Below, in pieces: positions 6,224 to 9,996 of a stretch of 64,000 nt of DNA. Every line of letters begins with the position of its first letter. Within the stretch, counting starts at the first letter, position 1. Source of the DNA: Tumebacillus sp. BK434 (GTDB lineage: Bacteria; Bacillota; Bacilli; Tumebacillales; Tumebacillaceae); NCBI RefSeq assembly GCF_004340785.1, contig NZ_SLXS01000001.1, positions 1,054,001 to 1,118,000 on the forward strand. The letters are read 5' to 3'. A program made the position numbers and the translations under genes. The notes below the pieces were generated by a model. That model ran no database searches. It worked only from the letters and a program-made list of their open reading frames with translations, and was not told where the DNA came from.

Positions 6224-6691
6224 TTACTTGAATTGTTTGGTCAGGTTCGCCATCTCGATCGCGGTGACGGCCGCTTCCCAGCCTTTGTTGCCCGCTTTCG
6301 TGCCGGCGCGCTCGATCGCCTGCTCGATCGTGTCGACAGTCAGTACGCCGAAAATGGTCGGCACGCCGGTTTCCAGCGCCACTTTGGAGACGCCTTTCGC
6401 CGCTTCGTTGCAGACATAGTCGAAGTGCGGGGTGGAGCCGCGAATGACCGCGCCGAGCGTGATCACCGCATCATAGCGGCCGGACTGCGCCATCTTTTGT
6501 GCGACCAGCGGGATCTCAAACGCGCCCGGCACCCATGCCACTTCCACATCGTCTTCTTCGAGGCCGTGGCGCTTGTATGCGTCCAGTGCGCCGCCGAGCA
6601 GTTTGCTGCCGATAAACTCGTTAAATCGACCGACGACGACCCCCATCTTTAAGCCGGTGCCAATCAGATTGCCTTCGATAAATTTTGCCAT
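6224..6691 (-). CDS. ribH: 6,7-dimethyl-8-ribityllumazine synthase
   Basis: Condenses 5-amino-6-ribitylamino-uracil with 3,4-dihydroxy-2-butanone 4-phosphate, the step before riboflavin synthase. The 155 aa show the family blocks [21 protein letters not shown], the [17 protein letters not shown] phosphate/substrate segment, [20 protein letters not shown] with the catalytic-site His, and [27 protein letters not shown]. The ATG at 6691 has GAGAGGAG 8 nt upstream; an upstream ATG at 6709 is less likely. It is the last gene of the rib operon, under the FMN riboswitch at 9819-9978. Confidence 0.96.
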
Positions 6692-6739
6692 GCTCAAAAC
6701 TCCTCTCACTCAACAAGTAGTTAGCTTTTCCAAAAGAAC

Positions 6740-7882
6740 TTACAGCGGCAGATTCGCTTGGCGGCGATCTGCGTCGCGAACTTGCAGCGGAACCGTTTCG
6801 GCGATCGTCAAGCCATAGCCTTCCAGCCCGACAAATTTGCGCGGGTTGTTCGACAGCAGGCGCATCTGCGTCACGCCGAGATCGCGCAGGATCTGCGCGC
6901 CGATGCCATAGTCAACGGTCTGCCCTTTTTCCCGCGTCGTCCGGTCGCTCTCCGCGCTATACGCTTGCACCTTTTCCAGCAGGGAGTTCGCACCGTCCAT
7001 CGCCTGGCGCAGGTGCAGGAGCACCCCACTGCCGTTTTCTTCGATTTCGCGCAAGGCGGCGTGCAGTTGGATGCCGCAGTTGCATTTGTGCGAGCCGAAG
7101 ATGTCTCCGAGCGTACACTCGTTGCGCACGCGCACCAGAGTCGGCTTGGCCGGGTCGATCTCGCCTTTGATCAGCGCCGCATGCTGCGTGCCGTCCAGCG
7201 TGTTTTTGTACACAGCGAGCTTGAACGTGCCGTATTCGGTCGGCAGCTCCATCTCCGCCGCGCGCTCGACCAGCTTTTCGCGGTCTTTGCGGTAAGCGAT
7301 CAGATCGGCGATGGTGATCATCTTGATGTCATGCTCTTCGGCGATCTTGATCAGGTCGGGAACGCGCGCCATCGTGCCGTCAGCGTTGAGGATCTCGCAG
7401 ATCACCCCGGCCGGATAGGAGCCGGCCAGCAGGGCGAGGTCGATCGCCGCTTCCGTGTGCCCGGCGCGGCGCAGCACGCCGCCGTCCTTGGCGACGAGCG
7501 GGAAGATGTGACCCGGCTTTTTAAAATCCTCACCGGTCGTGCCGTCTTCGATCAGGCGCTCGATAGTCACGGCGCGCTCGAAGGCGGAGATCCCGGTCGT
7601 CGTGCCCCGCTTGGCGTCGACGGAGATGGTAAACGCGGTGCCGTGCTGGTCGGTGTTGTGTGAAACCATCGGGCGCAGGTTGAGCTGTTCCGCCCGCTGT
7701 TCGGTGATCGGCACGCAGACCAGCCCGCGTCCGTGCGTGATCATAAAATTGATCGTGTCGGCCGTCGTCTTGTCGGCGAGCGCGATAAAATCCCCTTCGT
7801 TCTCGCGATCCTCATCATCGACGACGATGACGACCTTGCCTTGTTTCAGATCTTCGACTGCTGCTTCGATACCATGAAACAT
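6740..7882 (-). CDS. ribBA: RibBA: 3,4-dihydroxy-2-butanone-4-phosphate synthase fused to a degenerate GTP cyclohydrolase II domain
   Basis: The N-terminal half (about residues 1-200) is an intact DHBP synthase: [12 protein letters not shown] metal/substrate loop, [30 protein letters not shown] and [10 protein letters not shown] are all present. The C-terminal half aligns with GTP cyclohydrolase II, keeping three zinc-type cysteines ([16 protein letters not shown]) and the end motif [16 protein letters not shown]. However, the conserved RQEGRGIGL is replaced by [11 protein letters not shown], and the following segment with the catalytic Asp/Arg pair (xDxRDY region) is shortened by about nine residues and not recognisable. 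The protein is 380 aa rather than about 398 and lacks the final HYLxTK tail. The reading frame is clean, so this is divergence, not a frameshift. The first activity is probable; the second is doubtful. RibBX proteins of Proteobacteria are a known parallel. Confidence 0.9.
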
Positions 7883-7897: not shown

Positions 7898-8554
7898 TTA
7901 CGCAAACCCGTTTTCCCGCAGGTAGTCGAGCGTGAGGTTCGACTTGCCTTTTGCTTCCCCTGGTGCATATGGCAGCAAGAGCCGCTCGACATACTTGCCG
8001 ATGATGTCACACTCCAGGTTGACGACCGACCCGACGCGGCGGTGGCGCAACACCGTCACCTGCCAGGTGTGCGGGATCACCGACACCCGGAACGAATCGC
8101 TCGCCACGTCCATCACCGTCAGCGACACGCCGTCGATGGTGATGGAGCCTTTTTCCACTAAATAGCGCAGCACCTCGGGCGGCGCATGGAAGCGGACGAC
8201 CTTAGCGATGTCTTCCTCGACGATCTCCGCGATCCTCCCGATGCCGTCGACGTGGCCGGACACGATATGGCCGCCGAAGCGCTTGCCCATCGCCATCGCC
8301 CGCTCCAAGTTGACCGGCGAGCCGACCGCCAGTTCATGCAGCGTCGTGCGGCGCATCGTCTCCGGCACCACATCGACCGTAAACGAACCGCCGTCAAAAT
8401 GCGTCACCGTCAAACAGATGCCGTTGACGGCGATCGAATCTCCCAAGGCGACATCTTCCAAAATCGACGCCGCCCGCAACTTCAAATGAATCGCTTTGCC
8501 GGACGTTCGAATCTCCTGAACGGTACCGACCTCTTCGATTAACCCGGTAAACAT
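7898..8554 (-). CDS. ribE: Riboflavin synthase alpha subunit
   Basis: Dismutates two 6,7-dimethyl-8-ribityllumazine molecules to riboflavin and the pyrimidine precursor. The protein is 218 aa with the internal duplication of the family: barrel 1 begins MFTGLIEEVGTV and contains SIAVNGICLTV; barrel 2 has the equivalent SITIDGVSLTVMDV. The GGHIVSGHVDGIG linker segment is conserved. The ATG at 8554 follows GGAGGTG. It lies 3 nt after ribD and 15 nt before ribBA, consistent with one operon. Confidence 0.96.
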   Translation of the reverse strand: MFTGLIEEVGTVQEIRTSGKAIHLKLRAASILEDVALGDSIAVNGICLTVTHFDGGSFTVDVVPETMRRTTLHELAVGSPVNLERAMAMGKRFGGHIVSGHVDGIGRIAEIVEEDIAKVVRFHAPPEVLRYLVEKGSITIDGVSLTVMDVASDSFRVSVIPHTWQVTVLRHRRVGSVVNLECDIIGKYVERLLLPYAPGEAKGKSNLTLDYLRENGFA

Positions 8555-8557
8555 GCC

Positions 8558-9661
8558 TTACACCACCTCCGTGCGTTTCGGATAGCCGATCAGACAGAGG
8601 TCATCTCCGAACCGCTCCACGGTCAAAGCTGTCAGTTCCACAGCTTCTGCCATCTTGTCAAAACCGGTCCCGCCGTACGGAGACGGTGCAGCGCCGCCAA
8701 TCAGCTTCGGGGCGATGAACGAGATCACCTTGTCGATCAGCCCGGCTTGCAAAAACGCGCCGTTCACAGCCGCCCCGCCTTCGACGAGCAGGTCGGTGAT
8801 GCCGCGCTCATACAGCCCGTCCAGCACCTTGGCCAGATCGAGCCCGTCCGCTGCGACCGGCATCGGGATCACCTCGACGCCGCGCGCGCGCAGCCGCTCC
8901 GCTTTCGACTCGTCGACGTCCGGGCCGGTCAAAATCCATGTCTTCGCCTCGGCCGTGTCGGTGAGCCTCGCTGTCTCCGGCGTGCGCAGCGTCCGGTCGA
9001 GCACGATGCGCACAGGATGTTCCCCGCCGCCTTCCGGCAGGCGGGTCGTCAGCTCCGGATCATCGGCGAGCACCGTGCCAATGCCGACAAGGATGCCGTC
9101 AGCATGGTCGCGCAGCCGGTGCACCAACTCCCGCGACTCGCTGCCGGTCACCCAGCGACTGTCTCCCGTGTGCGCGGCGATCTTGCCGTCCAAGGTCATC
9201 GCGGTCTTCACCATCACAAACGGCCGCTTGGCCCGCATGTTGTGCACAAACCGCTCGTTCAGCTTCTGCGCCTCAGCTTCCAAGACGCCGACTTCCACTT
9301 CGATGCCTGCTTCCCGTATGCGCGTTACACCGCGTCCGGCCACCAGGGGATTGGGGTCGAGCATCGCCACGACCACCCGCTGCACGTTCGAACGGATCAC
9401 CAGATCCGCGCACGGCGGGGTGCGCCCATGATGGCTGCAGGGCTCAAGCGTCACATACAGCGTCGCGCCTTCTGCCGCTTCGCCCGCCATGCGAAACGCA
9501 TGGACCTCGGCGTGCGGCTGTCCGGCACGCAGATGTGCGCCAAAACCTATGATGCGGCCTTCCTTCACAATGACAGCTCCTACCAGGGGATTCGGGTTGG
9601 TCTTGCCTGTGGCCATCGCAGCCAGTTGCAACGCCGTTTGCATATAATGCTGGTCATTCAC
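8558..9661 (-). CDS. ribD: Bifunctional riboflavin deaminase/reductase RibD
   Basis: Catalyses the deamination and then NADPH-dependent reduction of the pyrimidine intermediate of riboflavin synthesis. The N-terminal CMP/dCMP-deaminase fold shows the zinc motifs HAEVHAF (HAE) and EPCSHHGRTPPCADL (PCxxxxxTPPC). The C-terminal reductase domain shows VKTAMTLDGKIAAHTGDSRWVTG and VEGGAAVNGAFLQAGLID. Length 367 aa is usual. The start is taken as the GTG at 9661, preceded by AGGAGG; the GTG at 9682 would place the SD inside the gene. First gene of the rib operon. Confidence 0.95.
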   Translation of the reverse strand: MNDQHYMQTALQLAAMATGKTNPNPLVGAVIVKEGRIIGFGAHLRAGQPHAEVHAFRMAGEAAEGATLYVTLEPCSHHGRTPPCADLVIRSNVQRVVVAMLDPNPLVAGRGVTRIREAGIEVEVGVLEAEAQKLNERFVHNMRAKRPFVMVKTAMTLDGKIAAHTGDSRWVTGSESRELVHRLRDHADGILVGIGTVLADDPELTTRLPEGGGEHPVRIVLDRTLRTPETARLTDTAEAKTWILTGPDVDESKAERLRARGVEVIPMPVAADGLDLAKVLDGLYERGITDLLVEGGAAVNGAFLQAGLIDKVISFIAPKLIGGAAPSPYGGTGFDKMAEAVELTALTVERFGDDLCLIGYPKRTEVV

Positions 9662-9688
9662 ACGAATCCACCTCCTGTTCACTGCGCA

Positions 9689-9723: not shown

Positions 9724-9818
9724 ATGTTTCGCGCGCATACAGATGACAGGCATCTTGTGCACATCAAAGAGCACCCTCAAAAAAGGGGCTGCTGTGCACC
9801 CTGCCATCCGTTCACTCA

Positions 9819-9978
9819 TTCCTTCTCCCATCCGGACTATACCGTCGGTACTGGATTCGCACCAGTTCCTGCCTGTGAAGGCTCGCGGACTTAGCGCTCC
9901 TCTGACTTGATACAGGAGCTCATCACCGCCGATTAGGAATTGACGGCACGGGGCCGTCTCACCTCACCCTGAAGGAAC
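9819..9978 (-). ncRNA. FMN riboswitch (RFN element)
   Basis: On the minus strand the conserved RFN blocks appear in order: TTCAGGGTGAGGTGAGAC, CGGCGGTGATGAG, AGTCCGCGAGC, TTCACAGGCAGGAACTGGTG, AATCCAGTACCGACGGTATAGTCCGGATG and a closing GAGAAGGAA that pairs with the 5' GTTCCTTC. It precedes ribD and a terminator hairpin. Binding of FMN is expected to cause premature termination of the rib operon. Confidence 0.97.
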
Positions 9979-9996
9979 TATATCATTGTAAGACCC

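Follow-up and report, generated by a model that had tools for sequence, protein, structure and literature searches.

The window, meaning the whole stretch of 64,000 nucleotides that was analysed, carries a riboflavin operon on its minus strand, headed by an FMN riboswitch aptamer at positions 9816 to 9980 (Rfam RF00050, 88.8 bits against a gathering threshold of 66.2). Behind the riboswitch the gene order is ribD-ribE-ribBA*-ribH, the third gene being the subject of this report. The coordinates given for ribD (8558 to 9682) and for ribH, lumazine synthase (6224 to 6709), are ORF limits, and the true starts of both genes may lie downstream. In tblastn the translated ribD hits its counterpart in the operons of relatives; ribH and ribE, riboflavin synthase (an ORF at 7898 to 8554), were named from reading and stand in the same order in relatives. 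The ribBA* gene itself (6740 to 7882, minus strand) is an ORF of 380 amino acids which, from profile matches and alignment, encodes a RibBX-like protein in which a DHBP synthase is fused to a degraded GTP cyclohydrolase II (GCHII) domain.

The DHBP synthase half of the protein (residues 1 to 200; 7283 to 7882) matches PF00926 with 291 bits, and the motifs that the initial annotation had called intact are indeed present. The protein passes the TIGR00506 ribB model (266.8 bits, cut-off 177.45). Its second half matches the GCHII family with 181 bits; nonetheless, the protein fails the cut-offs of both the TIGR00505 ribA model (125.8 bits, cut-off 205.85) and the bifunctional RibBA model NF006803 (521.6 bits, cut-off 569). 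Three further degraded copies likewise score below both of the latter cut-offs, whereas an intact paralogue from the same genome, described below, scores above them (657.7 bits for NF006803, 276.6 for TIGR00505). For annotation purposes, genes with a dead GCHII half resemble those for bifunctional RibBA, and the curated cut-offs separated all four of the dead copies tested.

The second half begins with a stretch that retains the zinc cysteines (residues 203 to 292; 7007 to 7276), continues through a lost GTP/catalytic pocket (293 to 323; 6914 to 7006) and a retained core reading [14 protein letters not shown]...SNNPRKF...ETVPL (324 to 366; 6785 to 6913), and ends in a shortened tail (367 to 380 and the stop codon; 6740 to 6784), these segments having been delimited by alignment and, except in the tail, characterised by their dN/dS. 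The description initially given, of a RibBA whose GCHII half lacks the catalytic motif, agrees with the ORF in coordinates, strand and motifs, and the pocket is degraded in all seven copies from the window's family. Thus [16 protein letters not shown] and LSNNPRK are kept in the window ORF, RQEGRGIGL has become [11 protein letters not shown], and the GCHII motifs RxEGRGIGL and xDxRDY are absent. The segment with the catalytic Asp/Arg is shortened as had been proposed, though by seven residues in sum rather than about nine, since relative to intact copies an 8-residue gap before DYGIGAQ is preceded by a 1-residue insertion. The YLxTK stretch of the tail, also reported missing, is gone in 7/7 family copies. 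In E. coli RibA numbering, which a count along the 2bz0 alignment confirms for Y105, D126 and R128, E92, R94 and R128 are lost in all seven copies and the equivalents of R49, C54, C65, C67 and K154 are kept in all seven; Y105 is kept in four, and position 126, around which the alignment is not secure, is D in three. The functional roles of these positions are presumed to be those of their E. coli RibA namesakes. With the GTP-binding loop, the segment of the catalytic Asp/Arg and the C-terminal tail all missing, the GCHII half would, judging from sequence, no longer open GTP.

Orthologues of the window protein in the six other family genomes (91, 86, 74, 73, 73 and 73% identity) all keep an open frame with a degraded pocket, and a sequencing error or pseudogene is therefore ruled out. 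A structural model of the window protein has a mean pLDDT of 83.6, with values below 50 at residues 295-298, 312-322 and 377-380, which correspond to the lost segments. Its top structural match is the Acinetobacter baumannii RibBX 6mnz (Z 34.9, 328 residues, rmsd 4.6), tied with the intact Mycobacterium tuberculosis RibBA 4i14 (Z 34.8, 316 residues, rmsd 2.9), and the second half of the model matches E. coli GCHII 2bz0 (Z 22.1). Domain order and fold are those of bifunctional RibBA, such as M. tuberculosis RibA2 (4i14) and the intact paralogue, from which the window protein differs in the loss of the GCHII catalytic residues.

One of the readings put forward in the initial annotation, that a second GCHII is encoded elsewhere, was borne out by searching the window's genome (G000) for another ribA with RxEGRGIGL. 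PF00925 matches in two places, the window gene and G000:C2:628301-628795, the latter within a gene (G000:C2:627689-628825) for a 399-amino acid RibBA with RQEGRGIGL, ADLREYG and YLKTK. An intact RibBA gene lies close between pcrA and ligA in six of the seven family genomes (L041, L035, L036, L037, L033 and L034), where it may share a transcript with these two genes of DNA repair and ligation. With contamination of the window's assembly estimated at 3.3%, a foreign source of the second RibBA was considered; it was ruled out by the recurrence of the pcrA-ligA location in six of seven genomes and by the six copies forming one branch. The location is without ribBA in the outgroups G009, G010 and G012, and in the seventh family genome, G005, pcrA and ligA are adjacent with no ribBA between them. 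G005 has instead a 358-amino acid protein with intact GCHII motifs (L038:2797-3873), encoded beside a gene that we take to be ubiD-like, and the first half of this protein has no Pfam DHBP synthase match at E values up to 1. To judge by their motifs, G005 holds two mirror-image proteins, a RibBA* with a dead GCHII and a GCHII protein without a detectable DHBP synthase. A degraded operonic gene and a separate GCHII with intact motifs thus occur together in 7/7 family genomes, in line with the comparison of relatives that had been proposed. In the other seven genomes of the order, one full-length RibBA is present in each; six of these were read and have intact motifs, and that of G007 was judged by score alone.

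Related arrangements have been described elsewhere. The G005 pair mirrors AtRIBA2 and AtRIBA3 of Arabidopsis, RibBA paralogues in each of which one activity has been lost, according to PMC3509567. In the same paper AtRIBA2 has a C-terminal deletion, as does the window protein, and deviating zinc-binding residues, in contrast to the zinc cysteines kept in the window's family. Mycobacteria too have a second GCHII-type gene besides RibBA: in PMC11302143, RibA2 is described as bifunctional, and RibA1, a putative stand-alone GCHII, could not replace it under the conditions tested.

An FMN riboswitch precedes the operon of the degraded copy in 7/7 family genomes, whereas none was found at the six pcrA-ligA loci (0/6) or at the G005 GCHII gene. 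Genome-wide, the operonic riboswitch is the only one in G000, G001, G002 and G005; G003, G004 and G006 each have a second (L161-L163) near a gene for a membrane protein that presumably resembles a DMT/EamA transporter.

A further GCHII-type family of approximately 250 amino acids, with an unusual first part (FxWYxWL), occurs in G001 to G005 and G012 (L146-L149, L151, L159 and L239). NHEGRGIGL is present in all six copies that were read, of which five belong to the window's family and one to its order; the gene was not found in G000 or G006. From reading of the ORFs, the copy in G004 adjoins a ribD-like gene. In G015 the gene adjoins a ribD and another locus holds ribE-ribB-ribH behind an FMN riboswitch, an arrangement that supports a role for the approximately 250-amino acid gene in riboflavin synthesis. 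It may substitute for the GCHII of RibBA in some Bacilli. Stand-alone GCHII genes were also seen in G001 and G004 (L039:2448-3050 and L040:2668-3291), encoding proteins of 201 and 208 amino acids that are 64% identical.

In a tree of the DHBP synthase half, built without RibBX rows, the seven degraded copies fall on one branch (95/95) and the six intact second copies on another (99/89). Each branch holds both genera, and the two copies are therefore most likely older than the separation of the genera; a topology that unites the two paralogues in one clade was not rejected (p-AU 0.222), so that the second copy may stem from a duplication within the family or may be older or acquired. Conservation differs along the protein. 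Invariant positions number 1/31 in the pocket of the seven degraded copies versus 30/31 in the six intact ones, 45/90 versus 69/90 in the first part of the GCHII domain, 34/43 versus 33/43 in the core and 138/200 versus 145/200 in the DHBP synthase half. Values of dN/dS were pooled over six within-genus pairs per class, G005, which has no pair, being left out, and are rough because dS exceeds 1 for some pairs; in degraded versus intact copies they are 0.149 versus 0.007 for the pocket, 0.157 versus 0.081 for the first part, 0.042 (bootstrap 0.018-0.078) versus 0.064 (0.029-0.119) for the core and 0.071 versus 0.085 for the DHBP synthase half. Simple decay of the dead half does not account for this pattern: constraint has been lost in the pocket and partly in the first part, and not at all in the core.

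These figures bear on two alternatives. The GCHII half could be a functionless, decaying remnant that is kept through its fusion to a needed DHBP synthase and will be cut off in time, a reading that we regard as unlikely overall. The relaxed first part of the domain and the different lengths of pocket and tail between genera are what such decay would leave, yet the core is unrelaxed in the window's family, and two genera, with copies 73-74% identical to that of the window, share the degraded state. A novel activity that depends on zinc, or the binding of some other small molecule, is meanwhile improbable for the domain. Although the conservation of C54, C65, C67, R49 and K154 would suit such a role, as would six substitutions fixed in all seven degraded copies and found neither in the six intact copies of the family nor in three from the order (among them H253R and Y290H, at positions invariant in 126/126 RibBAs with intact E92 and R94), hardly any of the old pocket segment is conserved in the family, unlike what would be expected of a new pocket, and the pLDDT of the model falls below 50 in parts of this segment.

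The initial annotation had also drawn a parallel with the RibBX proteins of Proteobacteria, which holds for anatomy and genome layout but not for the zinc cysteines or for descent. Ten relatives from a plasmid collection were aligned, out of 307 records with a match; four have EGRGIGL, and six, from Acinetobacter, Neisseria, Azospirillum, Sphingobium, Sphingopyxis and B. cepacia, lack the GCHII residues and are of RibBX type. The same pocket and tail are missing in these six as in the window protein, and GxGAQxL is kept in 6/6, so that these proteins too retain a version of the core, a point against simple decay. As in RibBX, an N-terminal DHBP synthase with conserved active-site motifs is followed in the window protein by a GCHII-like domain without the ring-opening residues. 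However, each of the six keeps at most one of the three zinc cysteines, whereas all three are kept in 7/7 copies of the window's family; RibBX is likewise reported without zinc-binding residues in PMC10012899. The window protein shares 65-69% identity with the RibBA proteins of six further genomes in its order and 43-46% with the six RibBX, and because it is closer to RibBA of its own order it is not RibBX by descent, as judged on identity alone. PMC10012899 describes an A. salmonicida operon of ribD, ribE, ribBX and ribH with ribA elsewhere, a layout that resembles the operonic gene and separate GCHII gene of the window's family, and a RibBX that complements an E. coli ribB mutant but not a ribA mutant. 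The same paper cites RibBX for Bradyrhizobium and, with reference to Brutinel 2013, regulation of the RibB domain by the X domain in Shewanella. A literature search of partial coverage found no earlier report of a RibBA with a degraded GCHII in Bacillota.

A separate case was found in the genus to which Neobacillus sp. DY30 belongs. Of 127 loci whose motifs were read, 80 of them on named contigs and being the best 80 of 589 RibBA hits, 124 have all seven GCHII residues intact. Among the best 80 of 589, 78 have the seven residues intact, one has a D-to-E change alone, and L064, from Neobacillus sp. DY30, has lost the pocket. (A survey of 398 genomes of the class gave scores for the matches listed.) A sample of 60 genomes from the Neobacillus genus was then searched and 59 were read, G448 (intact by score, with no 250-amino acid gene) being left out. 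The operonic gene encodes an intact RibBA in 30 of them, a class that includes four genomes with EGRDIGL, a RibBA with degraded GCHII in 12 and RibB alone in 17; ribH lies downstream within 300 bases in 59/59 and within 50 bases in the 12 degraded cases. The 12 degraded copies form one clade (100/97), with the pocket eroded, the tail cut and the core kept. The equivalents of C54, C65, C67, R49 and K154 are kept in 12/12, which again would fit zinc chemistry, and by reading of the alignment R128 is kept in 12/12, E92 in 2/12 and R94 in 1/12; going by these residues, degradation has not gone as far as in the window's family. Two substitutions were considered as marks of convergence and found weak: T149S is absent in the 12 degraded Neobacillus-genus copies and S149 occurs in 9/126 RibBAs with intact E92 and R94, and R363T, although present in 7/7 window-family and 12/12 Neobacillus-genus copies, has T in 4/126 of the same intact set.

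The main evidence for decay comes from the 17 genes that encode RibB alone before ribH (L301-L317), operonic ribBA genes cut to ribB and ending soon after the DHBP synthase half. Because these 17 genomes lack the domain, the GCHII domain is not indispensable for DHBP synthase there. Against decay, the core of the degraded copies is relaxed little if at all. Its dN/dS is 0.040 (0.015-0.075) versus 0.022 in intact copies, with overlapping intervals, so that a slight relaxation is possible; that of the pocket is 0.33 (0.21-0.52). For these estimates 12 of the 30 intact copies were chosen, and the intact copies are saturated in two segments.

A gene of the approximately 250-amino acid GCHII family, identified here by PF00925 score, is present in 12/12 degraded, 16/17 RibB-only and 9/30 intact genomes, the exception, G442 (RibB only), having no PF00925 match at all. 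A putative spare GCHII thus accompanies 28/29 altered operonic genes versus 9/30 intact ones (Fisher p 6e-8); on the tree, this link comprises four state changes and two to three independent pairs, too few for a sign test. The other PF00925 genes of the degraded genomes are solely of this distant kind, which speaks against the idea that the dead half forms a heteromer with an intact RibBA and tunes the live GCHII. The GCHII of E. coli is a dimer, and both paralogues occur together in 6/7 family genomes, but G005 (95% complete) has the dead copy with no full-length intact RibBA in its assembly, and the heteromer is considered very improbable.

The explanation that we favour, and hold to be probably correct, is that the window protein became RibBX-like by convergence, a spare GCHII having freed the operonic one, and that the remnant now serves as a scaffold or regulator of DHBP synthase. 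The ribBA* gene would supply DHBP synthase from the FMN riboswitch-controlled rib operon, and GCHII would be supplied by the pcrA-ligA RibBA in six of the seven genomes and by the GCHII-only protein in the seventh. The spare GCHII was presumably present first, upon which selection on the operonic pocket would have ended, and purifying selection on the rest of the domain, above all on residues 324-366, most likely reflects a part in holding or regulating the DHBP synthase half, by analogy with the X domain of Shewanella RibBX. An allosteric role, also raised in the initial annotation, would thereby be the best supported of the functions inferred for the domain. Some features sit less easily with the favoured explanation: 17 Neobacillus-genus genomes dispense with the domain, the first part is less conserved in degraded copies, and the retained zinc cysteines, R49 and K154 fit zinc chemistry as well. 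As side effects, GCHII would lie outside riboswitch control, and extra DHBP synthase could be made without extra GCHII. The latter would fit the consumption of two ribulose 5-phosphate and one GTP for each riboflavin, as given in PMC10012899.

Convergence of this kind would extend RibBX-like proteins from Proteobacteria to Bacilli-type bacteria. Repeated loss of the pocket with retention of the core amounts to a natural dissection of RibBA, pointing to residues that serve a purpose other than GTP chemistry, and the Neobacillus genus, with intact, dead-domain and domain-free forms of one operon gene, makes the role of an X-type domain testable in close relatives. A broader proposal, offered tentatively and with some doubt, is that RibBX-like proteins arose at least three times (in Proteobacteria, the window's family and the Neobacillus genus) by one route: after the gain of a spare GCHII, the GTP pocket and the C-terminal tail are lost, and the GIGAQIL...NNPRK core persists because it serves DHBP synthase as a built-in module for allostery or assembly, as it already did in bifunctional RibBA. 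In that case the same cross-domain control would exist in ordinary RibBA enzymes too, and the point at which feedback acts on riboflavin synthesis would have shifted away from the GTP step and onto that of ribulose phosphate.

Some minor observations concern other RibBA genes. In the window's order, G011 has an extra RibBA-like ORF of 344 amino acids (L050, G011:C1:572126-573040; 38% identical over residues 1-304), with the GCHII reduced to a stub (38 bits), perhaps another degraded case. In G074, a ribBA before ribH (L230) has a frame break just before EGRGIGL and a broken start, which may be an assembly error. Finally, in a distant clade of the Neobacillus-genus sample (L296-L300), RQEGRGIGL is replaced by EQEGRDIGL in four copies and by HQEGRGIGL in one.
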